Source: Weissella halotolerans DSM 20190
Lineage (GTDB): Bacteria > Bacillota > Bacilli > Lactobacillales > Lactobacillaceae
Assembly: GCF_000420365.1 (NCBI RefSeq)
Contig: NZ_ATUU01000002.1
Span: 124,001 to 188,000, forward strand
Reading direction: 5' to 3'
DNA length: 64,000 nt
Both the position numbers and the translations under genes were made by a program. Each line of letters opens with the position of its first letter. Position 1 is the stretch's first letter. The notes beneath the pieces were generated by a model that saw nothing but the letters and a program-made list of their open reading frames with translations, had not been told where the DNA came from and ran no database searches. Below, in pieces: positions 2,453 to 43,075 of the stretch.

Positions 2453-3826
2453 CTATGCTAGAGCCTGCTCTAATGCTTCACTCAATGTTTTAACGCCAAC
2501 CAAGTCTATCGACAAACCCTTAAAACTGGCATCAAGGGCTTGCTTAGGTAAAAACACCCGCTTAAAGCCTAATTTTTGTGCTTCTAAAACGCGATCTTTA
2601 ATGCGTGGTACCCGTCGCAACTCGCCGGTCAACCCAATTTCACCAATGAAGGCATCGGTAGGTCGCGTACCTTGATCACGATAACTAGAGGCAATCGCCA
2701 CCGCCAAGGCTAAATCAAGGGCAGGTTCATCAAGCTTAACCCCACCTGCTGCACGGACATAAGCATCCTGATTTTGTAAGAGTAAGTTAGCTCGTTTTTC
2801 TAGTACGGCCATCAAGACAGAGACCCGATTACGATCAATACCGGCAGCCGTGCGTTGCGCATTACCAAAAACAGTTGGCGTCACCAAGGCTTGAATTTCT
2901 ACCAAGACAGGCCGCGTCCCTTCTAAGGCCACCACAACAGCCGACCCACTCGCATCCGCTAACCGCTCTTCCAAAAACATTTCGGATGGATTGGTGACTT
3001 CAGCTAAGCCTTCATGCACCATTTCAAAAACACCTAGTTCATTGGTTGACCCAAACCGGTTTTTCTCCGCCCGCAAAAGCCGAAAACTACGCTGATTATC
3101 GCCTTCAAAGTAAAGAACAGTATCTACCATATGCTCTAGAATTTTAGGCCCAGCGATAGTGCCTTCCTTGGTAACATGCCCCACAATGAAAATCGTAATG
3201 TTATTAGTTTTAGCAATTTGTAACAGATCGGCCGTGGTTTCTCTAATTTGCGCTACTGACCCAACGGCAGATTGTACATCTGGCTGCTGCATCGTTTGAA
3301 TTGAATCAATCACAACTAAATCCGGTTGCGCTTCGTCAATTGCCTTGCGGATTTGACCCATATCCGTTTCTGGGTAAAGATAAAATTCGGACTCTCCGTC
3401 AACCCCTAAACGTTCTGCACGGAGTTTGATCTGCGCAGCACTCTCCTCCCCGGAGACATACAAAATACGGCGGCCCTGTTTAGACAAGGCACCTGAAACT
3501 TGCAAGAGCAAGGTAGACTTACCAATACCAGGATCGCCACCAATCAAGACTAACGAACCAGGGACGATGCCGCCCCCTAGTACCCGGTCGAATTCTGCTA
3601 ACTGGGTTGCAATCCGAGGGGTTTCAGCCAAGTCAACCTCGTTTAGCCGCTCAACCTTTGCCATTTGGCCTGCTAGATTCACACGTGATTTCCGATCAGC
3701 TTTTTCAGGTCGTTGGACCTCTTCGACTAAAGTTCCCCAAGCCCCACAATTGGGACAGCGGCCCATATATCGCTGTGAAATTGCACCACAATTTGAACAT
3801 ACAAATTGGGTCTTTGTTTTCGCCAT
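2453..3826 (-). CDS. radA: DNA repair protein RadA
   Basis: RadA/Sms, 457 residues, a RecA-related ATPase that drives branch migration during recombinational repair and natural transformation. An N-terminal C4 zinc finger uses Cys10, Cys13, Cys24 and Cys27. The Walker A is [10 protein letters not shown] near residue 95, the RadA-specific KNRFG motif is in the AEKNRFGS segment, and a Lon-like C-terminal domain follows ([14 protein letters not shown], then [12 protein letters not shown]). Length and domain order are those of the family. It lies between dut and yacL. Its role in transformation is relevant to the competence-like regulators at 34-35.4 kb, though no direct link is visible. Confidence 0.95.
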
Positions 3827-3838
3827 TATGCTACCTCA

Positions 3839-4381
3839 TCATTTCATTCCCGAACTACCAAAACCACCAGTTCGCTCAGCCTTTTCTGTCTTCTCGTCAT
3901 CGTCAGTTAAGAGATAGGGCATAAAAATTCCTTGACCAATCCGCTCGCCCTTTTTAATCAGGCGGTCATGTAGCCCAAAATTAATCATTTGAATAAAAAT
4001 TTCGCCCTCATTCGCCGCGTTATCAACATAGTCAGCATCAATAATGCCCACCCCATTAGGCAAATAAAGCCCACGTTTTAAGGGATTTGATGAACGATTG
4101 GCAATTAAAAGAAACTCCTGCGGCTCCATATAAACTTTAATGCCGGTCGGTACCAAAAGTGGTTTTAAAACTAAATCAGCCGCTTGATAATCACTGGCCA
4201 CCACTGTTTCAGCCTGTCTTAACCGTTTTAAAATTTTTAGAAAGGGTAACCGCCAAATTGATGGCAATAGGAAATCTTCTGCCGCCTGAAAATCATATCC
4301 GGCTGCAGCCTTGGTGGCACGTTTTGGCAACTCAAGCGTCCTTGCATCATATTTACTTACGCGTGCAAATTTTCTGGTCAT
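3839..4381 (-). CDS. dut: dUTP diphosphatase
   Basis: Trimeric-type dUTPase, 180 residues, hydrolysing dUTP to dUMP and diphosphate and so limiting uracil in DNA. Recognisable motifs are the substrate-binding NRSSNPLKRGL, the GVGIIDADYVDNA segment with the catalytic-site aspartate and the GERIGQGIF strand. The glycine-rich C-terminal arm (RTGGFGSSG) closes over the active site in this family. An insert of about 25 residues (IWRLPFLKILKRLRQ and following) makes it longer than the usual 145-150 residues; such inserts are seen in some LAB homologues. It is 12 bp upstream of radA, as is common in the order dut-radA. Confidence 0.93.
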   Translation of the reverse strand: MTRKFARVSKYDARTLELPKRATKAAAGYDFQAAEDFLLPSIWRLPFLKILKRLRQAETVVASDYQAADLVLKPLLVPTGIKVYMEPQEFLLIANRSSNPLKRGLYLPNGVGIIDADYVDNAANEGEIFIQMINFGLHDRLIKKGERIGQGIFMPYLLTDDDEKTEKAERTGGFGSSGMK

Positions 4382-4462
4382 GTTGTTATACTCCTCAATT
4401 TGGGTCTCCCTCCGATTATAACGAACTTCTATCCAATTAAAAAGAGTCCTTAATCAGAAAAG

Positions 4463-4500
4463 CACCCATAAAGATTCCCTAGCGGACTTTATGGGTGACC
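4463..4500 (-). terminator. Probable intrinsic terminator after the GNAT gene
   Basis: A perfect 11-bp inverted repeat (CACCCATAAAG at 4463-4473 and CTTTATGGGTG at 4487-4497) with a 13-base loop. It lies just past the stop of the acetyltransferase gene. In the minus-strand transcript a short CUUUUCU tract follows the stem, so termination may be only partial. Confidence 0.6.
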
Positions 4501-4531
4501 ATTAACTTAGCTTATATCTATCTATCCTTAA

Positions 4532-4813
4532 CTAGACATCACGCCGCTCGAGGGCCTGATAGTCAGGATGCCGAAGGAAGGCCTCACGCGCATATGAACA
4601 TACTGGCTTGAGTTGCACACCAGCCTGCTGAGCTCGTTCTACCACTTCAGCTAACATTTGTCCCGCAACACCCTGTCCGCGCAAGGCTGGATTAACGTAG
4701 GTATGGTTAATGGACCAAACCCGACCGTTATCAATTGCCGGAAACAAAATTTCGGCTAATACCTGTCCATCTTGCTCGTAAAACAAGCGCCCTGGCTCAA
4801 ACGTAAATTGCAT
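4532..4813 (-). CDS. Small GNAT-like N-acetyltransferase (YjdJ type)
   Basis: A 93-residue protein of the short acetyltransferase family typified by YjdJ. The acetyl-CoA-binding pattern VNPALRGQGVAGQMLAEVV is clear, and a C-terminal PVCSYAREAFLRHPDYQAL segment is typical of this subgroup. Substrate unknown. I chose the ATG at 4811-4813 because AAGGGGGGG lies directly upstream. A longer frame to 4870 would overlap the preceding gene and lacks a ribosome binding site. It follows the NlpC-like gene by 13 bp, so the two are probably co-transcribed. Confidence 0.8.
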   Translation of the reverse strand: MQFTFEPGRLFYEQDGQVLAEILFPAIDNGRVWSINHTYVNPALRGQGVAGQMLAEVVERAQQAGVQLKPVCSYAREAFLRHPDYQALERRDV

Positions 4814-4826
4814 CTTGACCCCCCCT

Positions 4827-5369
4827 TTAACGTAGCGAACCCACATAATTAGGCATCCAAGCGGACCCAATTTCCTTGACCTGCACCTGACCAGCTAAAA
4901 CATCAACTGTTAAATAACGGCCACCGCCCAAATAGATACCAGCATTCGTGATTAAACGATTGTTCACCCAAAATACAATATCCCCTGGCATGACTTGATC
5001 AACCGGTACTAATTGTACAGCGTGCATCTGTTGTTTTAAGTTTGCCGGAAAGGCGACCCCATAAATTTTATTATAGATATACTGAATTAGGCCTGCTAGA
5101 TCAAAGCCATTGGTTGGTTGCCGCCCTTGAAGCTGATAGGGTTTACCCTCAACTTCTGCAACCACGTCCCAAAGGGCAGCATGCATACTATTCATGATCA
5201 TTTTCATGAGTACCCGTTGGATAAAACCAGCATTGGCCCCCTGCTTAATAGTTGCCGATACAATCTGAAAAGGGGTCTCCCCGCTCGCCGGAGTAAAAAC
5301 AATTTCACTATCTACCTCACCATAGTCATCTGTATGGGTGACTCGGCCGTCCTCTAAATGATAAGGCAT
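4827..5369 (-). CDS. NlpC/P60-like protein lacking the catalytic Cys and His
   Basis: A 180-residue protein whose C-terminal half follows the NlpC/P60 peptidase fold, with QPTNGFDLAGLIQYIYNKI at 84-102, VMPGDIVFWV at 127-135 and NAGIYLGGGRYL at 142-153. In active members these read FDCSG, PGDLVFF and HVGIYLG. Here the catalytic Cys is Leu91, the His is Asn142 and no third-site His is evident, so peptidase activity is not expected. There is no signal peptide, so it is probably cytoplasmic. The N-terminal 80 residues are unassigned. GGAGGAG precedes the ATG. It is downstream of the secreted LysM-CHAP gene but separated by a terminator. Confidence 0.75.
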   Translation of the reverse strand: MPYHLEDGRVTHTDDYGEVDSEIVFTPASGETPFQIVSATIKQGANAGFIQRVLMKMIMNSMHAALWDVVAEVEGKPYQLQGRQPTNGFDLAGLIQYIYNKIYGVAFPANLKQQMHAVQLVPVDQVMPGDIVFWVNNRLITNAGIYLGGGRYLTVDVLAGQVQVKEIGSAWMPNYVGSLR

Positions 5370-5383
5370 AACGCTCCTCCTTT

Positions 5384-5419
5384 AAAAAAAGAGGGACCCG
5401 AAATATTCGAGTCCCTCTT
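5384..5419 (-). terminator. Intrinsic terminator of the LysM-CHAP gene
   Basis: GAGGGACTCGAA and its complement form a stem on the minus strand, followed by a run of seven T. It begins 15 bases past the stop codon of the LysM-CHAP gene. Confidence 0.85.
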
Positions 5420-5433
5420 GGTAGGTTTCAATC

Positions 5434-6072
5434 TTAATGAATGAAAGTCAAACCAGCTGCAGATACTGTCCGCTCATGGAACATTAGACCAGCATAGTTA
5501 CCTTCTGAAATGTTGATTGTACCGTTAGCATTTACAGATTCAACAACGCCCACATGACCAAAGGCACCGGCACCACCGACACCAGGTCCAAAGACAACAA
5601 CTGAACCTGCGGCAGGTGTTCCGTTAACAACACGACCAGCAGCAGCGGCTGAAGCACCCCAACCAGCAGCATTACCCCAGTTGTTACCTACCCAACCCAA
5701 GGCATTCTTTACATACCAAGTGCACTGTCCGGCTGGGTATGTGTTAGGTGTGTTAGCTTGTGAACTAGCAGTTGCAACTGGTTGTGCAGCAGGTGCAGTA
5801 GCTTCAGTAGTTTGTGCTTCGGCTTGCGTATCAGCTGATGCTGCTTGCCCGTCTAATTCAAGTTGGTCACCAACAAAAATCAAATCCGCATTATCTAACT
5901 TGTTGGCCGCCACAATAGCGTCAACTGTAGTGTTATTTGCAGAAGCAATTGATGACAATGTATCCCCAGCTTTAACCGTTACAGAATCAGCTGACGCAGC
6001 AACCGTTGTGCCCCCAAAGACGGCAACCGCACCAGCAGCTGCTAATAGTGTACTTTTAGTCGTGTTTTTCAT
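5434..6072 (-). CDS. Secreted LysM-CHAP peptidoglycan hydrolase
   Basis: A 212-residue exported cell-wall protein. An N-terminal signal peptide (MKNTTKSTLLAAAGAVAVFG, cleavage likely after AASA) is followed by one LysM domain (VKAGDTLSSIASANNTTVDA to FVGDQL) that binds glycan strands. An Ala/Thr/Gln linker leads to a C-terminal CHAP amidase/endopeptidase domain with catalytic Cys in PAGQCTWYV and His in AFGHVGVVE. I chose the ATG at 6070-6072 because GGGGGAGAAAG sits at Shine-Dalgarno distance; an upstream in-frame ATG would place that site inside the gene. It is flanked by terminators, so probably monocistronic. Likely role in cell separation or wall turnover. Confidence 0.9.
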   Translation of the reverse strand: MKNTTKSTLLAAAGAVAVFGGTTVAASADSVTVKAGDTLSSIASANNTTVDAIVAANKLDNADLIFVGDQLELDGQAASADTQAEAQTTEATAPAAQPVATASSQANTPNTYPAGQCTWYVKNALGWVGNNWGNAAGWGASAAAAGRVVNGTPAAGSVVVFGPGVGGAGAFGHVGVVESVNANGTINISEGNYAGLMFHERTVSAAGLTFIH

Positions 6073-33975: not shown

Positions 33976-34470
33976 TTAATTACCTTCCCTGTCCGTTAGT
34001 ATGATTTGCTGGCGCATTCGCTTTAGGCATCGATGCAACGTCGTGCGATGGATCCCTAAGTGTTGGCAATACGCTCGTTGACTGAGTCCTGGTTGCTGTA
34101 AATAAAGTTGATAAACTCGCGCTGCAGTTGAATTTGGCGTTAACTTTTTGGCTAACCCCTCAATTAACAGGTAACAGTCAAGTCGCTGCCTGGGATCAAC
34201 TACTCCATCTAAATCCCCTTTATCAGTCAAGCAACTATGCGTCTGGTGACGCCAAGTCTGCCGTTGCTTATCTCGTAACCGCCACAAGAGCCAGCGAAAA
34301 AGGGCTGGGTTATTAACCGGCGCTAAATCTTCACCTGCTTTTAACCTTTGCCAAATTAAAAGATAAAGTTCCTGACGATAGTCTTCATACTGTACGTCAC
34401 AGGGACTTAGACCAGCAGCCTTTAAGACACCGCCAATCAAGGGATTAAATACTTGTAAATCTGTCTGCAT
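33976..34470 (-). CDS. Probable alternative sigma factor, ComX/SigH-like
   Basis: A 164-residue protein with the plan of short sigma-70-like factors. A region-2-like helix (CDVQYEDYRQELYLLIWQRL) and a Trp-rich stretch (FRWLLWRLRDKQRQTW) lie in the first half. A region-4-like HTH ends the protein (PGLSQRAYCQHLGIHRTTLHRCLKRM). Such proteins in Lactobacillales are the competence sigma factor ComX or its SigH relatives. AGGAGG precedes the ATG. It lies downstream of a ComK-like gene on the same strand, which strengthens a competence role. A plain transposon or phage HTH protein is the alternative. Confidence 0.6.
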   Translation of the reverse strand: MQTDLQVFNPLIGGVLKAAGLSPCDVQYEDYRQELYLLIWQRLKAGEDLAPVNNPALFRWLLWRLRDKQRQTWRHQTHSCLTDKGDLDGVVDPRQRLDCYLLIEGLAKKLTPNSTAARVYQLYLQQPGLSQRAYCQHLGIHRTTLHRCLKRMRQQIILTDREGN

Positions 34471-34494
34471 AGACTTCCACCTCCTTAGAGGCGA

Positions 34495-34629
34495 TTAAAG
34501 CATACCTCTAAAGCGTGTCCCGTCATCTTTATCAGCTGTAAGGCCAGACTTAGTTCCGGCTGTACGCCAGGCCGCCTTCCCTTCCTCACTGGCCCAGCCA
34601 TAATAATACAGACTTAACTTAGTAGACAT
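34495..34629 (-). CDS. Possible 44-residue protein between the two competence-like genes
   Basis: An open frame starting MSTKLSLYYYGWASEEGKAA and ending TRFRGML, unrecognised. The ribosome binding site is poor (no GGAGG-type sequence before the ATG at 34627-34629). It could be a remnant or a leader segment of the sigma gene's transcript. Included because it fills the gap between the ComK-like and sigma genes on the same strand. Confidence 0.25.
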   Translation of the reverse strand: MSTKLSLYYYGWASEEGKAAWRTAGTKSGLTADKDDGTRFRGML

Positions 34630-34692
34630 ACTACGACATGCATTGGTGCTTAGCCCTTAGCTTTTATTTGCATCGTGACCTGCTGGCTATAT

Positions 34693-35439
34693 TCATTGCC
34701 ACCACCAATCTGGCTGGATACGTTGACTATATTCAGGTTCACTGGCAGTAGCTACAAAAGCTGCTGCCTCTCGGATTTCTTTGCCCCCGTCTCTGGTCTG
34801 CGCAAAGTGGCCCAACTCTACTAGCAGTTGGTACCGGCGCAGCAGCGCTGGCTCTATACTACCAGGTTCACCCGCTGGATAAGGCAGCCAGGGTAACACT
34901 TCTTGCGCCGGTGCGGCCCTTAACCAATGGTAGCGGTGTAGTAACTGCATTTGCCAGCTAACCACCTTTAGTCGCGCCAACTGCCTTTTCACCTGATTAC
35001 TCGAACGCGGTAAATAGTAGGGGCGGCCAGCCACTAAAAGCTGGCTACCGCTGCCATACTGATCGACCCCATCTAAGTAAGCAATATTCACCCAGGCTAC
35101 AGCTCCTGCTAAATTAGATGCCACCGGCCAAAAACCATCCTGGCCCTGAAGCCATGGAAATGGCCCCTGCCGTTGGTCCATGGCCCAATAATAGGGAAGA
35201 ACATCCCGTTCAATAAACCACTGATGACGTTTAGCCAGCGTCTTTATCCAGTGATTCGTTGAGCGGGCAACTAAGACGGGTTTCCCATCATTATGAGCTG
35301 CATAAACAGCCGTCGCCTGCTCCTTATTCATAACGCGGACTGGCCGAATTAATTCTGTTTCAGTTAGTGATAAATCAATTGATCCTAGTAGATCGAAAAC
35401 TGGTTTAATCCGCTTTAGCCCTTGTGCTAAATTTTCCAT
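34693..35439 (-). CDS. ComK-like competence transcription factor
   Basis: A 248-residue protein resembling ComK of Bacillus in order and spacing of key residues. GKPVLVARST (about 52-61) aligns with the ComK segment around DRSC. GFWPVASNLAGAVAWVNIAY (102-121) aligns with ComK's FPTLSS..CGW region. LLVAGRPYYLPRSSNQVKRQ (134-153) aligns with its SNGK..LPIS..ENQ stretch. The C-terminal 90 residues are diverged. ComK activates DNA-uptake genes in Bacillus; a similar role here is inference. Start at ATG 35437-35439, with AAGGAGGG upstream. A sigma-like gene follows. Confidence 0.6.
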   Translation of the reverse strand: MENLAQGLKRIKPVFDLLGSIDLSLTETELIRPVRVMNKEQATAVYAAHNDGKPVLVARSTNHWIKTLAKRHQWFIERDVLPYYWAMDQRQGPFPWLQGQDGFWPVASNLAGAVAWVNIAYLDGVDQYGSGSQLLVAGRPYYLPRSSNQVKRQLARLKVVSWQMQLLHRYHWLRAAPAQEVLPWLPYPAGEPGSIEPALLRRYQLLVELGHFAQTRDGGKEIREAAAFVATASEPEYSQRIQPDWWWQ

Positions 35440-35471
35440 AAAGCCCTCCTTAGTGTTAACCAAGCCAGCAT

Positions 35472-35504
35472 AAAAAAAGAACTGGTCCCATTAAGACCAG
35501 TTCT
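35472..35504 (-). terminator. Intrinsic terminator of the acetoin reductase gene
   Basis: AGAACTGGTC and GACCAGTTCT form a stem followed by seven T on the minus strand, between the reductase stop and the ComK-like gene. Confidence 0.9.
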
Positions 35505-36434: not shown

Positions 36435-36459
36435 CGGTTTTAGTTGGCCTACTTGCTTA

Positions 36460-37024
36460 ATGAAAGGTAACCTTAATCTGACATACATCTAAAGCTCACA
36501 CGTTTTGAACAGAAGAACGGACATGGGAATAAACCCCATTAATCTGACATACATCTAAAGCTCTTCTGACGATGGTCAGGCAGGTTTGCCTAGGAATAAA
36601 CCCCATTAATCTGACATACATCTAAAGCCCTTAATGCTACACACGCTTCTCTTCTTTGGGAATAAACCCCATTAATCTGACATACATCTAAAGCCAACAG
36701 GTTTGTCAGCATCTTCAATGTCTGGGAATAAACCCCATTAATCTGACATACATCTAAAGCGGTAAAGCTATTGGTAATTTTGTTAAAGGTGGAATAAACC
36801 CCATTAATCTGACATACATCTAAAGCAAGTGCCTTAGGAGCTACTTCGCTATACCTGGAATAAACCCCATTAATCTGACATACATCTAAAGCTTTAAGCA
36901 TTTTCCATAGCTCATGCCACCAGGAATAAACCCCATTAATCTGACATACATCTAAAGCGATTTTGGGTGCGCTAGGTTTGCTATATAAGGAATAAACCCC
37001 ATTAATCTGACATACATCTAAAGC
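36460..37024 (-). CRISPR. Type II-A CRISPR array, 9 repeats and 8 spacers
   Basis: Eight identical 36-bp repeats start at 36526, 36593, 36659, 36725, 36791, 36857, 36923 and 36989. A ninth, degenerate copy at 36460-36495 keeps only 23 bp (36473-36495). In crRNA orientation (minus strand) the repeat begins GCTTTAGATGTATGTCAG and ends GGGGTTTATTCC. Spacers are 30 bp, except one of 31 bp (36562-36592). The damaged repeat at the left marks the trailer end, so new spacers would enter at the right, next to csn2. Identical repeats suggest an active or recently active array. No spacer target was identified by eye. Confidence 0.97.
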
Positions 37025-37051
37025 CGATAGCTTTGTTGTTCTATCGCGATT
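37025..37051 (-). promoter_or_regulatory. Very short CRISPR leader with hairpin
   Basis: Only 27 bp separate the csn2 stop from the first repeat. They contain a perfect 6-bp inverted repeat (CGATAG at 37025-37030, CTATCG at 37041-37046). No -10/-35 pair fits here, so the array is probably read from a promoter inside csn2 or from the cas operon. Confidence 0.6.
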
Positions 37052-37720
37052 TTACGAAAAAACAACATAATCATTATCAATGAAATAGGCCGTAAATGTG
37101 TCATTTGCATGTGGTTTATCCTCAACCAGATCTAAATCTAACAACACTAAATCTTCAGCTAAAAGAATTTGGTGCAGTTGTTGTAATTCTGAAAAAGTAC
37201 AATAGAGATGTAAATTTGTCATAATCAGTAAACGGCTCTCTGACATTAAAGCCATCACTTCTATTATACTTACTATTTTATCAAAAATAGAGGTTACTTG
37301 CACTGTTTCTATTGCCATGACTTGCCCTTTTAAAAACTGATTCAAATCCCAGGTATTTACCAACGAAAAAGGTAAATTAGCATCAATAATGACTTCTTCT
37401 ATTTTAGTCTGTAATTGCTGGTTCAACTGGTAAAAGATAGCTAAGTCTTCTTCCGTCAAGGCCGCCTGAAAGGCTTTCATTACCTGGCGCGCGTAGAAAT
37501 CTGCTACATTAAAGCTACCAAGGGCATCCCCGATAAAAATGCTTCCATTACTAAAGGACACGACCTTCAAATCCTCACTATAAACAATTTCTGGATAATT
37601 GGCTTGAATACCAGTCACCGTCCTAAAAAATAAAGAAGCATTTTGCAAGGCAATAACATTTAAACCAGCAGTTAATGTGAAGGTTGCAATTCCCTCAATC
37701 GTTATTTTCCGTTCAGTCAT
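37052..37720 (-). CDS. csn2: CRISPR-associated protein Csn2
   Basis: A 222-residue protein of the short Csn2 form, the ring-shaped DNA-end-binding factor needed for spacer acquisition and diagnostic of subtype II-A. The N-terminal ITIEGIATFTLTAGLNVIAL, the middle VSFSNGSIFIGDALGSFNVADFYARQ (split at about 55-80) and a helical C-terminal half fit the family. Its start overlaps the cas2 stop by 4 bp. Last gene of the cas operon, directly followed by the array. Confidence 0.9.
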   Translation of the reverse strand: MTERKITIEGIATFTLTAGLNVIALQNASLFFRTVTGIQANYPEIVYSEDLKVVSFSNGSIFIGDALGSFNVADFYARQVMKAFQAALTEEDLAIFYQLNQQLQTKIEEVIIDANLPFSLVNTWDLNQFLKGQVMAIETVQVTSIFDKIVSIIEVMALMSESRLLIMTNLHLYCTFSELQQLHQILLAEDLVLLDLDLVEDKPHANDTFTAYFIDNDYVVFS

Positions 37721-38037
37721 ATAACAACCACCTTATCATCTCGATTTTTAATGTCTGTTTTTGGACTCCCTACTAAGAAATGCATGCTATTATACTGCTT
37801 TTCAGTGGTTAATAGGGTTTGTATCAAACCTGTAGATGGCAAAGCATGCCGAATTCGTTCTTCCAGTAAGGCTGCTGACTGACGGTTAGTTGTAATTCGT
37901 ACGTAAATGCTTTCCTGCATCATTAAAAAGCCTTCATTTAATAAGCATTTACGAAATAATCGATATTGTCTGCGCTGTTCAGCTGTTTCCACCGGTAAAT
38001 CAAACATCACAATTAAACGCATTACTCGGTACCGCAT
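37717..38037 (-). CDS. cas2: CRISPR-associated endonuclease Cas2
   Basis: A 106-residue Cas2, the dimeric partner bridging two Cas1 dimers in the integrase. It has the ferredoxin-like N-terminus RLIVMFDLPVETAEQRRQYR with the conserved Asp, followed by RKCLLNEGFLMMQESIYVRI. It overlaps cas1 by 16 bp and csn2 by 4 bp, consistent with translational coupling. Confidence 0.95.
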   Translation of the reverse strand: MRYRVMRLIVMFDLPVETAEQRRQYRLFRKCLLNEGFLMMQESIYVRITTNRQSAALLEERIRHALPSTGLIQTLLTTEKQYNSMHFLVGSPKTDIKNRDDKVVVI

Positions 38038-38909
38038 CCTTCAAACTCCATTTCTGTCACTACTTTTGTATCACCATTAAGATAGTTAAGACAGTCCCTT
38101 ACATATCGTTGGACCGCCTGCGTTAAATCCATTTGCATCCCTTGATAGGTAATCACTTGGTCCAATACACCTATTAGGTTTAATTTAGTCTCTAACGTTA
38201 GCGGCTGATCCTTCTGCTTAAGAACACAGGCATCGACAAAAGGACGAAAGGGTTCCATAAGATCCGATGCCAGATTAAAGGCGTTTTCCCAACCTGTATG
38301 ATGAATGCCAAGTTGAGTTAAATAGCCATTGGCTACGATCTCTCTACTAAAGGTAGCCAATAATAAACTATAACCATAGTTAAGGTGCCCATTAATTGCT
38401 TGCCGCTCGTCACTACGAACAACCCCCTTTCCAAACAGACGGGGAAAATACAAACGCGCCGCTTGCGCTTCACGATTATGCTCATCACCTAACTCTACTT
38501 CTCCCGCTAGACGCATTAATTCAGGATAAGCTTCTACTAATTCATGGTTAAGAACCCGATCTTGGTTCAAAATCTTAGTCTTAACAATCTGTTGCCAGAT
38601 GCGATCACGATGGGCTTGATCCCATAATAATTGCTTAGCAATATTCTTGTTTTGTGCTCCATTTCCCCGGTAAGGCATTAATTCTCCCGCAGGCATCCCC
38701 CGCTCATCACAAAAAATTACCTTCACTCCCCGCCGACTTAACTCATTCATGGCATAGGCAGTAATAACCGCCCGCGTGGTAGCGATGATTAAAACCTTAA
38801 TATCATCAATGGGGATTTGTTCAGCTCCATGGTCCGTTTGAACCTTCAAGTCATTCATTCGGTAATTTAATTTAGCATGCGAAGTAATCACTACTGTTCT
38901 CCAAGCCAT
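38022..38909 (-). CDS. cas1: CRISPR-associated integrase Cas1
   Basis: A 295-residue Cas1 of the type II group, catalysing spacer integration. The N-terminal beta domain starts WRTVVITSHAKLNYRMNDLK. The catalytic acid/His pattern is in the helical domain (NGHLNYGYSLLLATFSREIV, then GIHHTGWENAFNLASDLMEPFRP, where the metal-binding His and Glu/Asp lie). Length is typical. Transcribed with cas2 and csn2, and separated from cas9 by the tracrRNA region. Confidence 0.95.
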   Translation of the reverse strand: MAWRTVVITSHAKLNYRMNDLKVQTDHGAEQIPIDDIKVLIIATTRAVITAYAMNELSRRGVKVIFCDERGMPAGELMPYRGNGAQNKNIAKQLLWDQAHRDRIWQQIVKTKILNQDRVLNHELVEAYPELMRLAGEVELGDEHNREAQAARLYFPRLFGKGVVRSDERQAINGHLNYGYSLLLATFSREIVANGYLTQLGIHHTGWENAFNLASDLMEPFRPFVDACVLKQKDQPLTLETKLNLIGVLDQVITYQGMQMDLTQAVQRYVRDCLNYLNGDTKVVTEMEFEGCGTE

Positions 38910-38935
38910 TCCTCTTCCCCTTCTCCCAACTAGTA

Positions 38936-38944
38936 TGTTATACT
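38936..38944 (+). promoter_or_regulatory. Extended -10 promoter of the tracrRNA
   Basis: TG at 38936-38937 and TATACT at 38939-38944 form an extended -10 element on the plus strand, about 6-12 bases before the predicted tracrRNA start. No -35 box is apparent, as expected for this promoter class. Confidence 0.5.
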
Positions 38945-38949
38945 TAACT

Positions 38950-39066
38950 CGTGGTTAGCTACCACGGGAATAAACCCATTAATCTGACATGCATAAATTA
39001 AAGTAACGCAAGATTCTTTGAATCAAGCTTCAATATCTTTTAGACGGCCTTATGGCCTTTTTTATT
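38950..39066 (+). ncRNA. tracrRNA for Cas9
   Basis: Plus-strand RNA between cas1 and cas9. The anti-repeat (38967-39004) complements the crRNA repeat over most of its length, with one deleted C and one G-U. The lower stem TAAAGT (38999-39004) pairs with GCUUUA, and an AAAT bulge (38995-38998) faces G/GA as in other II-A duplexes. A nexus-like hairpin GATTC-TTT-GAATC follows at about 39012-39024. A GGCC-TTAT-GGCC hairpin with six T (39046-39063) ends it. A palindrome CGTGGTTAGCTACCACG (38950-38966) lies at the presumed 5' end. Exact ends are inferred. Confidence 0.85.
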
Positions 39067-39072
39067 TGGCCA

Positions 39073-39111
39073 AAAAGCGGCGGTGTTTGTTATTCAAACA
39101 TCGCCGCTTTT
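39073..39111. terminator. Strong bidirectional terminator at the cas9 3' end
   Basis: AAAAGCGGCGGTGTTTG (39073-39089) pairs with its complement (39095-39111) over 17 bp with one G-U, around the loop TTATT. T tracts lie on both strands. It would end cas9 mRNA and back up the tracrRNA terminator. Confidence 0.93.
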
Positions 39112-39115
39112 CTTT

Positions 39116-42100
39116 TTACAGCAAATCCTGAACGCGGCGTCGCTTTTCAAACAAACCACTTGGTGATTGATAAATAAGTTCTGCTTGATCTGTTAATTTA
39201 ATGCCACCTTCCTTCTGAAGTTTTGTCCACATGCGTACTTTTAATCCTATTTCCTTAAAGTACTGCTTAATTGGATCTCGCCAACCAGCATTATCGTGAA
39301 GCTCATACAACACATCCTTCAACACCTTTAATTGCGTTGCCTTAGCTAAGTCTTGAAAGCCAGCACGATTGTCCCTAAGTAATTCAAGATCCCGCTGATA
39401 AAACTTAAAATGGTGGATAGTAGCCGAACTAGTCAAAGCATCAAAAACAGTCAAAAAATCCTCAACTGGACTTTCAGCAGTTAAACGTTTATAAGTTGTC
39501 ACCACCTTTTGATCCAGCCAGAGCTGCTTAGCATTGTGTTTCATTTCATTGGTTGCAAGATAAAAACGTTGACCCTCATCTTCTACGAGTTGCCCTAATG
39601 AAATCTTGGGTAACAGAATTCGCTCAAACTTTTTTACCTTTGCTTGCACATAGTCGTCTAACTTTCGTTGGCCACTATGAATTTCATTAGCAATCCGTAC
39701 CGGAATCTTTACCAACTGATTTTTCCCACCAGCCCGAACTAAAGACATATAGGCCGAACTTTCCTTAGTGTAGCCACCATAAATAGTTGGATCCTGCCGT
39801 TCCTTACTGGCCCCTACCAAGCGTTTCTTAGGGTCAGCCGCGATTAAAGTCTCCTTATATAGGGCGCCTTCTGGTCCTACTGGTTTCCGAGTCATTAGCA
39901 TGGTCTTGTACTGCATAACTTTTCGCAGATAATTTAAATTATCTGGTGTCCAATCTTCATTACCTTTGCTCATTGTACCGACTACAAAGCTGTAAGGATG
40001 CCGGCGGCGGTTCTCTCCCTGATTCTTGAGCCAGTGCTGGGTGTAATAATCAAACTCATTATAAATAAACCGGGCATCTCGTTTAGGAAAATGACGGTGC
40101 AGGTAAGTTCCTGCTGTCGCTACTAGCAGAGCATCCTGGGCATGGTGATAATCATTAATATCCCGGTCCTTCTTAATTTGCGTCAACTGTCGCAGTTCAC
40201 CAGTCACTTCAGCCCGAATGGCGACCGCCTGGGTTTGACTAAAATGGCCTTCTATCAAAGCCGCCACATTTTTAATAATTTGGCGGGTTTCAACTAACTG
40301 TCGAGCAATAAACCGCTCGCGTTCCATCTCTGTAAAATCGCCAGTTCGTGTTAGAAGCCTAAATTTTTTAGCCGAAATGAGTCCTAATTTTTTTAACTGT
40401 TGCCAAAGCGGAAAAGCCTTAGCCTTAACATCGGCCGTAAAGGTGGCTGAATCTGTCTTCCGTGCATTATCAGTTCGATTAACTAAGACCTTGTTTTCCA
40501 AGGAATCATCCTTGATGAAAGCACGGGGCACGATATGATCAATATCATAGTGACTTGACAGCTGATCAATACTGATACTTTGACCGGTATACATGTCACG
40601 ACCCAACTGCGCATAATACAGGTATAACCGGTCATCTTGCATTCGGTCATCTGATTCTTCGGCCAGTGCTTCTTTAATAGCCTTGAATTCAGTCTTCAAA
40701 GCTGCATTTTTATATAGGGTCTCCAGTCGCTTCTTACGTGAAACCGTTCGTCTTGATGCCTGTTTTTCGCGGGCAAATTCCAGATAGACGTAAGCTGGTT
40801 CCTCCCCCATCGCTTGAGTAATATCGTCCAAGACATTAAAGGCTTGCTTAATTCCCCGTTTATTAGCTGGTGAGGTGGTTAATTCATCAATTCGCATTTG
40901 AATATCTTTTTGGTCATCAATCATATTTTGACTTTTTAGCCATTCCTCTACCCCATATTCTGAATCATGTAGGATTTCCATGAAATTTTTATTCGTTGTA
41001 TAGAGTAAGTCCATGATTGAAACTGGCTCTTCAGGCCGTTCTGGATCGTGAATAAAGGAAGTGTCTAATAACTTACGTGACAAATTACCCCAGCCGGTAT
41101 AGTGCTTTTTAGCCAGGCGGGGAATAAGTTTTTGCTCTAAGCCTAACTTGCCTAATTCACGCTCTGCAATGTCACTATCTTCAAAGACTGTCTGAATTTC
41201 AACTATCTTTTCCAACAGTGAATGATTTTGAGGATTAGTTATAAAATCAGTCCCTAGCAGGCCCTGCAAGTCATGATAACTGGTCAAACTACTAGTAAAG
41301 CGGCTTTCATCTGCCAAACCCGTTAACTCGACCTCACGTTTTCCAAAGCTTGCAAAATAATCTTGAAGGCGTTTCTTAGTGACTAATCGATATTTTTTGA
41401 AAAGGTCCTCCACAATGGCTTGTTTCGTTTCCACCGGTAACCGTTTACCATCAATCCGAATATTATTCAGCTCATTCAAAACCGTAAATGTTTCATACGT
41501 CAGTGAATGCCGGGGAAGAGTTGGTTCACCAATTAAATAGGTATCGGTGCCCGTTAATCGGTCAATAAAACTTTTAGCTGCCCGATCACGATTAAAAACT
41601 TGATCAAAGTTCCATGGTGTCACCGACACTTTCGTTTGGCCATCATTTTTTTCTACCCAATGATTTTCGGCATTCCCGGCTGTTTCAGACTTCGGTACCA
41701 TCGGACCCACATAATATGGAACTCGAAACTGAACTAATTCCTCGATCTTATTTACGGACTGGCCCTGTTTAGCAAAGGTATCCAGTAAAAATGGATAATA
41801 CTGACCCTGCTTAGCTAGAATTTTCTTTAGTTCAGCCAAATGCAACTGATAAGGAATCAATCCATTAGCTTTAGTCCTTTGCTTAGGGGCAAACTGGTCA
41901 TTCGCAATGCGATCCAACATCGTTGCTTTGTCTTGCTCACTGGCATCGCTAGCTTCGATCAATTGAGCTAGCTCCTTAGCCCCCCGTTTATGTTTTTTAT
42001 CGTCTACACTTAAGTAGTTTGTATAGCCTTCAGATAAAGCTTGTCGATTCTGCGGTGTTCGCACTTGTGTTTTTAAAAAAGTTAAATCCCGTCGATGATC

Positions 42101-43075
42101 TTCATAGGCTTTAATCATAGCTGATGACAGTGATTGCTCATCTCCCAAAAAACGCATCAAAGCAATCCCATCATATGCTCGTTTAATGGCCAAAAAGAAT
42201 TCTGTTTCATCCTGGCTAAGTCGTTCTAAGATTGGCAAGGCCTGCTCATCAAAGTCTTCTTCAGAAAGTTTCATTTTCCATTGCTTTCGTTCTTCCTGAT
42301 CCCAATCAGCTGAATCAACATTCACAAAGAGTTTAGTAAAGTCAATTTGGTTACCACTAAGTCCCTTCAGCATTTCCTTGATGGCAGCTCGATCCACTTT
42401 AGTATCAAAGCTAAAGGCTTCTATGGCGGCATCTACCCGGGCACTATTACTCAAGCCAGTCGCTAATTCAGCCTCCAAGAAACGTATTGGAGCTTCCAAG
42501 GCCCAGCTTAATGCCTGATGATCCGCAAAACGAGCTAATGCCTGAGCAAAATCAGTAACATCAAACTGTTGATCAATATCCAAGGAGGATTGAGGATTCA
42601 AAAAGTTACCCCGGTATTTCACAATATGATGGATTGCCAGATATACCTCCCGCAAATCATGTTTTTGGTCATCTTCCATTAATCTCTTTCTCAAGTGATA
42701 AATAGTTGGATACGCTTGATGATATGCTTGATCCGCTGCGGTACTCCCAAATACGTAACCACCATAATAATGGTCCTGTTGCCCCTGGTCCTTTTTATTG
42801 ACATAGCTATATTTCAAACGAGCTAAGAAATTAGGATCAACCGCTTGTAAGGGTTTTGCAAAGATGTCATCTAACAAGCGTAGTCGCCAACGTCGGCGCT
42901 GCAAACGCCGCCGATTAGTCCTATGCCCCCTTCGTTCTGCTGCCGAGTCTGCCTCATCAAATAGGCGCACCCCAATCACATTTTTACCCTTCGTTCTAAC
43001 TAGGTTGTATTGATTATCAATCCCAGCAAAGCCAACTGAACCCACACCAATGTCAAGACCTACACTATATGCCAT
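39116..43075 (-). CDS. cas9: CRISPR-associated endonuclease Cas9 (type II-A)
   Basis: A 1319-residue RNA-guided DNA endonuclease. All nuclease residues are present: RuvC-I Asp8 in GLDIGVGSVG, the arginine-rich bridge helix (about 49-68, RRGHRTNRRRLQRRRWRLRL), RuvC-II Glu766 in YLEFARE, HNH His847 in DIDHIVP with Asn870, and RuvC-III His977/His978 and Asp981 in HHAQDA. The C-terminal 300 residues should read the PAM; its sequence cannot be told from here. GGGGAAGG is only about one base before the ATG, an unusually tight Shine-Dalgarno. cas9 is transcribed ahead of cas1-cas2-csn2 but probably as a separate unit because of the terminator at 39073. Confidence 0.97.
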   Translation of the reverse strand: MAYSVGLDIGVGSVGFAGIDNQYNLVRTKGKNVIGVRLFDEADSAAERRGHRTNRRRLQRRRWRLRLLDDIFAKPLQAVDPNFLARLKYSYVNKKDQGQQDHYYGGYVFGSTAADQAYHQAYPTIYHLRKRLMEDDQKHDLREVYLAIHHIVKYRGNFLNPQSSLDIDQQFDVTDFAQALARFADHQALSWALEAPIRFLEAELATGLSNSARVDAAIEAFSFDTKVDRAAIKEMLKGLSGNQIDFTKLFVNVDSADWDQEERKQWKMKLSEEDFDEQALPILERLSQDETEFFLAIKRAYDGIALMRFLGDEQSLSSAMIKAYEDHRRDLTFLKTQVRTPQNRQALSEGYTNYLSVDDKKHKRGAKELAQLIEASDASEQDKATMLDRIANDQFAPKQRTKANGLIPYQLHLAELKKILAKQGQYYPFLLDTFAKQGQSVNKIEELVQFRVPYYVGPMVPKSETAGNAENHWVEKNDGQTKVSVTPWNFDQVFNRDRAAKSFIDRLTGTDTYLIGEPTLPRHSLTYETFTVLNELNNIRIDGKRLPVETKQAIVEDLFKKYRLVTKKRLQDYFASFGKREVELTGLADESRFTSSLTSYHDLQGLLGTDFITNPQNHSLLEKIVEIQTVFEDSDIAERELGKLGLEQKLIPRLAKKHYTGWGNLSRKLLDTSFIHDPERPEEPVSIMDLLYTTNKNFMEILHDSEYGVEEWLKSQNMIDDQKDIQMRIDELTTSPANKRGIKQAFNVLDDITQAMGEEPAYVYLEFAREKQASRRTVSRKKRLETLYKNAALKTEFKAIKEALAEESDDRMQDDRLYLYYAQLGRDMYTGQSISIDQLSSHYDIDHIVPRAFIKDDSLENKVLVNRTDNARKTDSATFTADVKAKAFPLWQQLKKLGLISAKKFRLLTRTGDFTEMERERFIARQLVETRQIIKNVAALIEGHFSQTQAVAIRAEVTGELRQLTQIKKDRDINDYHHAQDALLVATAGTYLHRHFPKRDARFIYNEFDYYTQHWLKNQGENRRRHPYSFVVGTMSKGNEDWTPDNLNYLRKVMQYKTMLMTRKPVGPEGALYKETLIAADPKKRLVGASKERQDPTIYGGYTKESSAYMSLVRAGGKNQLVKIPVRIANEIHSGQRKLDDYVQAKVKKFERILLPKISLGQLVEDEGQRFYLATNEMKHNAKQLWLDQKVVTTYKRLTAESPVEDFLTVFDALTSSATIHHFKFYQRDLELLRDNRAGFQDLAKATQLKVLKDVLYELHDNAGWRDPIKQYFKEIGLKVRMWTKLQKEGGIKLTDQAELIYQSPSGLFEKRRRVQDLL

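Follow-up and report, generated by a model that had tools for sequence, protein, structure and literature searches.

A ComK-like gene beside a short sigma-70-family factor gene in Weissella halotolerans: a candidate competence-control pair found across Lactobacillales

The systems closest to the locus described here are known competence regulators. ComK of Bacillus and Staphylococcus has a core of about 130-150 columns with a conserved proline and a conserved tryptophan, as does the family studied here, and SigH of Lactobacillus sakei and ComX of streptococci are short sigma-70-family factors. SigH of L. sakei activates competence genes, and the published sigH genes of L. sakei and L. plantarum lie at the cysS-nusG locus (PMC3364868). 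According to the same paper, a homologue of ComK is lacking in Lactobacillales, and the transformation trials of L. sakei that it describes yielded no colonies (PMC3364868). In Staphylococcus aureus, both SigH and ComK1 control the transformation genes (PMC10182052). A 2013 census of regulators in lactic acid bacteria places ComK among four families unique to Lactobacillaceae when compared with Streptococcaceae (PMC3616900); the section of the census that holds this entry names neither its function, nor a sigma partner, nor its spread in other families. For Lactococcus, no early-phase activation mechanism is identified in the account given in PMC11244767, and the "ComK" of an enterococcal proteomics study derives from a YlbF/YmcA annotation and is another protein (PMC9503237). 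Our search of the open-access literature, with subscription journals, preprints and supplements outside its scope, found no description, for Lactobacillales, of a ComK gene with a sigma gene next to it.

We analyzed a stretch of 64,000 nucleotides (the window) from Weissella halotolerans DSM 20190, whose genome comprises 1.36 Mb in 6 contigs. Two open reading frames on the minus strand, at 34693-35439 and 33976-34470, were confirmed where a sequence-only reading had described two neighboring regulators. The first encodes a ComK-like protein, P0001 (248 aa from ATG; with the alternative TTG start at 35463 it would be 256 aa long), which was assigned from its relatives and a profile-profile match with ComK. 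The second encodes P0002 (164 aa), a short, sigma-H/ComX-like member of the sigma-70 family according to family-level matches. On the minus strand, the gene of P0001 precedes that of P0002, and between them lies a 222-bp spacer (34471-34692) in which no terminator-like site was found on that strand. Upstream of the ComK-like gene is an SDR-like gene, and a terminator-like hairpin (35478-35504, minus strand) separates the two, which would make the pair the beginning of a transcription unit of its own. This reading is only suggestive, because the scanned region held 5 terminator-like sites against 2.7 expected from shuffles. The promoter scan of the pair did not rise above chance (5 sites, with 4.3 expected). 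The spacer also holds small open reading frames of 38 and 44 codons (the latter at 34495-34629, minus strand), and one of 30 codons (34650-34742, minus strand) overlaps the end of the ComK-like gene; these may be peptide genes or chance. A type II CRISPR-Cas locus (36459-43075) abuts the pair, with an array at 36459-37036 of 66-nt spacing and reading frames at 37052-43075 which by eye resemble Csn2, Cas2, Cas1 and a 1319-aa Cas9.

The kinship of P0001 with ComK had been proposed from the motif order RST...FWPVAS...W...LPRSSNQ, and this order was found in P0001 as described. As a single sequence, P0001 had no match in Pfam at E<=10 (the PF06338 cut-off is 22.3 bits) and no match in NCBIfam; a search of the genome with PF06338 likewise gave no match at E<=0.001. 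In order to compare families instead of single proteins, we aligned a 14-row profile of P0001 relatives (A1) and a wider set of 24 rows (A4) with 20 ComK proteins collected with PF06338 from the class (A3). In hhalign, A1 matched A3 with an E value of 3.1e-9 over 132 columns, A4 matched it with 2.9e-12, and the 18 non-Weissella members of A4 matched ComK with 3.9e-10. The best of 40 column shuffles reached 0.11 for A1 and 0.029 for A4, the reversed alignment reached 0.14, and unrelated alignments gave 0.4-0.49. P0001 alone against the ComK alignment gave only 0.031. Members of the wider family also matched the Pfam model themselves: at E<=10, PF06338 matched 16 of the 24 sequences of A4 (best 8e-8), and at 0.01 it matched 12 of the 27 members of a further profile, A7. 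Of 10 relatives taken from the family groups f1, f5 and f59, 8 scored above its curated cut-off, one fell just under it and one had no match. The alignment of the family profiles with the ComK core extends over about 130-150 columns, and within A1 only 19-22% is shared between P0001 and the remaining 13 rows. P0001 is also longer than the 20 ComK proteins of A3, which have 160-216 aa. Judging from these profiles, P0001 is a remote, long-form homologue of ComK. The proposed kinship was recovered with the family profiles and missed with P0001 as a single sequence; since P0001 itself fails the curated cut-off, we do not file it as a PF06338 member. The ComK profile against PDB sequences gave just two unrelated matches (E 0.45 and 0.97).

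ComK of B. subtilis carries the motif FMLYPK, which binds MecA. At a position like that of FMLYPK, after the core, a hydrophobic-(W/Y)-P motif is conserved among the Weissella members (residues 183-190 of P0001, with P188 nearly invariant in A1).

The assignment of P0002 to the sigma factors was similarly divided between the single protein and the family. P0002 scored 17 bits against TIGR02937, whose cut-off is 42.9, and in Pfam it matched HTH-type models alone, none above the cut-off. Among the 12 Weissella members, P0002 was the only one to match TIGR02937, and no Pfam sigma model matched any of the 12 at E<=1. In the wider sigma family (A8, 29 members), TIGR02937 was found in 23 members (best E 2.2e-15), PF04542 in 15, PF08281 in 10 and the generic HTH_23 in 16, all at E<=0.1. 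The AlphaFold model of P0002 (pLDDT 80.4, pTM 0.46) resembled ECF sigma factors weakly in fold; of its ten best PDB matches, nine carried the description sigma L, sigma H or RpoE, and the tenth was an initiation-complex chain, with E values of 0.005-0.035, none at or below 0.001, and a TM of about 0.3. Two matches of the Weissella sigma profile (A2) to PDB sequences (E 0.53 and 1.6) were taken as chance. Of 26 candidates in its genome, 11 were scored, and P0002 was the only one of these to match A8 at E<=0.001. At the family level, then, the family of P0002 is assigned to sigma-70, with regions 2 and 4 as proposed, whereas P0002 alone stays under the TIGR02937 cut-off.

We examined how often the two genes occur together. 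In the genus, a sequence search recovered ComK-like relatives from 13 of 28 genomes, with no match in the other 15, and in 12 of the 13 the sigma gene adjoins the ComK-like gene, so that the pairing goes beyond chance; in the thirteenth (G003) the two genes are on different contigs. The same search found relatives in 9 of 301 genomes of the family, one of which (G211) is a stretch with stops. Sigma relatives are present in 26 of the 28 Weissella genomes, and A2 matched 185 of the 301 family genomes at E<=0.01. At 14 further Weissella sigma loci, no neighboring reading frame had a convincing ComK-like profile match; a 625-aa reading frame (L164) that matched the ComK profile with an E value of 0.0033 was taken as chance. 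By eye, the sigma genes in the window and at 14 other Weissella loci have neighbors other than cysS and nusG. The gene of P0002 thus differs in its location from sigH of L. sakei, L. plantarum and B. subtilis, being beside a ComK-like gene; a cysS-nusG location is not required of ComX. In six loci of the W. hellenica/paramesenteroides group (L006, L008-L011 and L013), inspection by eye showed several TATGG-containing repeats in the 150 bp before the sigma gene; these are possible regulator sites.

Beyond Weissella, we fetched the regions around the ComK-like matches in 34 of 45 genomes, covering ten other Lactobacillaceae genera and leaving out 7 Weissella genomes together with G116, G141, G164 and G186. 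The sigma gene, accepted here to an E value of 0.01 (the weakest being L127 with 0.0033 and L144 with 0.0035), was adjacent in 29 of the 34 regions, about 7.5 kb off in one and absent from the fetched stretch in four. By coordinates, it is about 8 kb off in G116, G141 and G164, and G186 has the two genes on separate contigs. Among four Enterococcus records found via the sigma gene, three (L088, L089 and L091) have a divergent ComK-like neighbor and the fourth (L090) has only a weak ComK-like candidate further off. In several of the other Lactobacillaceae genera, small genes near the sigma gene (L150:1935-2404, L138:2565-3063, L127:5557-6025, L137:1129-1341 and L158:603-848) look like DUF2922 and DUF1659, and in L150 a RecX-looking reading frame (4314-5126) comes after the ComK-like gene.

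In the order as a whole, the ComK-like profile A7 matched 147 of 295 genomes and 52 of 74 genera; in group f3, which is probably Streptococcaceae, it matched 0 of 45 genomes, as counted by eye. The survey gives numbered family groups, and the names Lactobacillaceae and Lactobacillales follow from the genus. A7 and A8 include members from the surveyed genomes, so that the best E values are partly self-matches, and the A8 survey scored 11 candidates per genome. The pair counts use the matches listed, which cover 136 of the 147 genomes for the ComK-like gene, 148 of 292 for the sigma gene and 113 genomes for both. Among the matches listed, the two genes lie within 1.5 kb of each other in 93 of the 113 genomes, from six family groups; in the other 20 they are further apart (13) or on different contigs (7). 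Also among the matches listed, 59 of the 93 pairs are divergent, 17 are convergent, 16 are in tandem with the ComK-like gene first and 1 is in tandem with the sigma gene first. A further 23 genomes have a ComK-like gene without a sigma gene among the matches listed, 13 of them in group f60, and if these count as misses the adjacency among the matches listed becomes 93 of 136. Some genomes of groups f4, f5 and f59 (G667, G715, G735, G753, G769, G775 and others) have two ComK-like genes, which is reminiscent of ComK1 and ComK2 in Bacillus cereus and Staphylococcus.

The pair had been regarded as an unusual hybrid switch. This view has to be given up, since the arrangement is common in the order (29 of 34 regions; 93 of 113 genomes among the matches listed) and ComK and SigH have already been described as controlling competence jointly in S. 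aureus (PMC10182052). In both cases a sigma-H-type factor and a ComK-type protein are involved in competence; the adjacency reported here belongs to Lactobacillales.

We think it about an even chance that the locus is a competence-control pair widespread in Lactobacillales, in which the ComK-like protein is the proximal regulator and the sigma factor is the effector that acts on the late operons. That is, the long ComK-family protein would bind DNA and regulate the adjacent sigma gene, probably together with its own gene, and the sigma factor would steer RNA polymerase to a common promoter element of its presumed targets comG and comE. This reading draws on the homology, the conserved adjacency, purifying selection in other Weissella and an element common to comEA and comGA in Weissella. 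As to selection, the dN/dS values between six other Weissella species were 0.07-0.20 over 15 pairs for the ComK-like gene and 0.08-0.29 for the sigma gene (13 of 15 pairs with finite dS); these ratios are rough, with many dS values above 1, and they pertain to species other than that of the window. Purifying selection seems to act on both genes in those six species. The distribution in the genus is also informative: PF00437 (comGA-type) is present in 28 of 28 genomes, the sigma gene in 26 and the ComK-like gene in 13. The sigma gene therefore follows the uptake machinery in its distribution, and the ComK-like gene seems to be optional, which would be expected of an upstream regulator. Since the ComK-like gene is rarer than the sigma gene and the machinery, and the pair stays together in every orientation, the simplest reading is that the ComK-like protein regulates the sigma gene locally and the sigma factor acts on the late promoters. 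Several observations count against this reading: the lack of K-box enrichment between the genes, the 17 convergent pairs, the 20 genomes with non-adjacent genes and the 23 without a sigma gene (all among the matches listed), the 15 Weissella genomes with no ComK-like match, the weak sigma fold matches, and the interrupted comGA and comEC of the present genome.

The main rival to the local-regulator reading is joint action, in which the ComK-like protein and the sigma factor would work together at the same late promoters and their adjacency would only keep them in balance. A precedent exists in S. aureus, where comG needs both ComK1 and SigH while ssb and comC need ComK1 alone (PMC10182052). 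The 17 convergent pairs among the 93 (among the matches listed) are ill-suited to a shared promoter region, and adjacency in any orientation fits co-inheritance instead. Against joint action stands the scarcity of the ComK-like gene in Weissella relative to PF00437 and the sigma gene, from which it seems that the late promoters are probably not all dependent on ComK, although more diverged ComK-like genes could have escaped detection there. Taken together, we consider joint action rather unlikely.

If the sigma factor acts as the effector, its targets may share an upstream element. In many of the Weissella examined, CGTCTTTATTA or a variant of it is found upstream of comEA, directly before the ribosome-binding site (L195-L212), and CGTCTTTATTA-like text is found also upstream of comGA (L175-L193 and L213). 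For this analysis we took the comGA regions of 22 and the comEA regions of 18 of the 28 genomes, with L194 and L200 dropped. When two mismatches were allowed, CGTCTTTATTA occurred in 11 of 18 comEA and 10 of 22 comGA regions, as compared with 4.3% and 5.7%, respectively, in resampled sequence. With a matrix built from the 18 comEA sites, the 22 comGA regions outscored 206 control upstream regions (Mann-Whitney p 1e-7), and a score of at least 9 was reached by 9 of 22 comGA regions and 5.3% of the controls (99th percentile 14.1). In several rows (e.g. L195 and L175) the matcher picked a site other than the one seen by eye, several of the best comGA matrix matches likewise differ from the by-eye site, and in the matrix scan the comGA start was mis-set in L191 and two bases inside the gene in L160. 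Because the element was first spotted by eye in both operons and the controls were mostly from other genera, the evidence for a shared comEA/comGA element in Weissella is suggestive only. We regard it as a candidate site that the competence sigma factor may read. The element was rejected as an autoregulation signal of the pair, not being consistently upstream of it: a matrix score of 14.1 was obtained 193-194 nt upstream of the sigma gene only in the closely related genomes of L003, L004, L005 and L007, and in L002 the region before the ComK-like gene scored 11.5, with low values elsewhere.

The K-box of Bacillus ComK is AAAAN5TTTT. Exact K-boxes numbered 5 in 23 divergent intergenic regions (2.3 expected; 27 of 200 shuffles reached 5) and 1 in 8 tandem intergenic regions (0.8 expected). 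K-boxes are thus not enriched between the paired genes of the relatives. In this respect the locus differs from the described ComK (PF06338), as it does in the position of the gene beside a sigma gene and in the fact that P0001 lies under Pfam detection.

The late competence genes bear on what the pair can still do in this strain. PF03772 (ComEC) is present in 27 of the 28 genus genomes, and an open comEC frame of at least 729 codons was found in 24, among them G008, whose match is under the cut-off. Shorter frames were found in the present genome (485 codons), in G019 (577 codons) and in G012 (two pieces), and G004 had no match. In the present genome both comEC (L159:2763-4979; reading frames 2763-4196 and 4272-4979) and comGA (L160:5179-6060; reading frames 5179-5598 and 5662-6060) contain one in-frame TAG. 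DNA uptake in the strain has therefore probably been lost, unless the two stops are assembly errors, and the output of the switch would probably be dead here. These stops are also an argument for taking the pair of this genome as a relic or as repurposed, its regulators either decaying or controlling something besides DNA uptake, and the mere 19-22% that P0001 shares with its relatives points the same way. We nevertheless consider this unlikely: neither reading frame is interrupted, each retains the residues conserved in its family, and broken com genes stand beside the pair or the sigma gene elsewhere in the genus as well (comEC of G012, and the PF00437 match of G007, which is in two pieces).

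That P0001 is not ComK by descent, having another beta-rich, LytTR-like DNA-binding fold that resembles ComK in a short core, is suggested by its lack of a Pfam match, its E value of 0.03 to the ComK alignment and the LytTR domains that are the best structural matches of its model, but is very improbable in view of family profiles matching ComK over 130-150 columns (E 1e-9 to 1e-12, with controls at 0.029 or weaker), of family members that pass the Pfam ComK cut-off, and of LytTR profile matches that are not significant. The latter gave E values of 0.034-0.09 against A1, A3, A4 and A7 in hhalign, with a LytTR alignment of 22 rows of which at least one (L254) is a wrongly chosen reading frame. 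PF04397 (LytTR) had no match in this genome. The resemblance to ComE, the LytTR response regulator of Streptococcus pneumoniae, is limited to a structural match with the DNA-binding part of ComE, and the profiles are not significantly similar.

The structural matches allow a wider proposal, namely that the pair is the missing proximal switch of the ComX-type sigma factor in Lactobacillales outside the probable Streptococcaceae and that ComK has a LytTR fold. We regard this proposal as doubtful. If it is true, ComK of Bacillus and the pneumococcal step from ComE to ComX would be variants of one ancient arrangement, in which a LytTR-type activator drives a competence sigma factor, and ComK would gain a fold.

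In conclusion, the ComK-like family speaks against the claim that the order lacks ComK. The pair is a testable candidate for the switch of DNA uptake in related lactic acid bacteria. Many lactic acid bacteria carry DNA-uptake genes, and the conserved pair supplies a defined regulator that could be induced or deleted in food bacteria.
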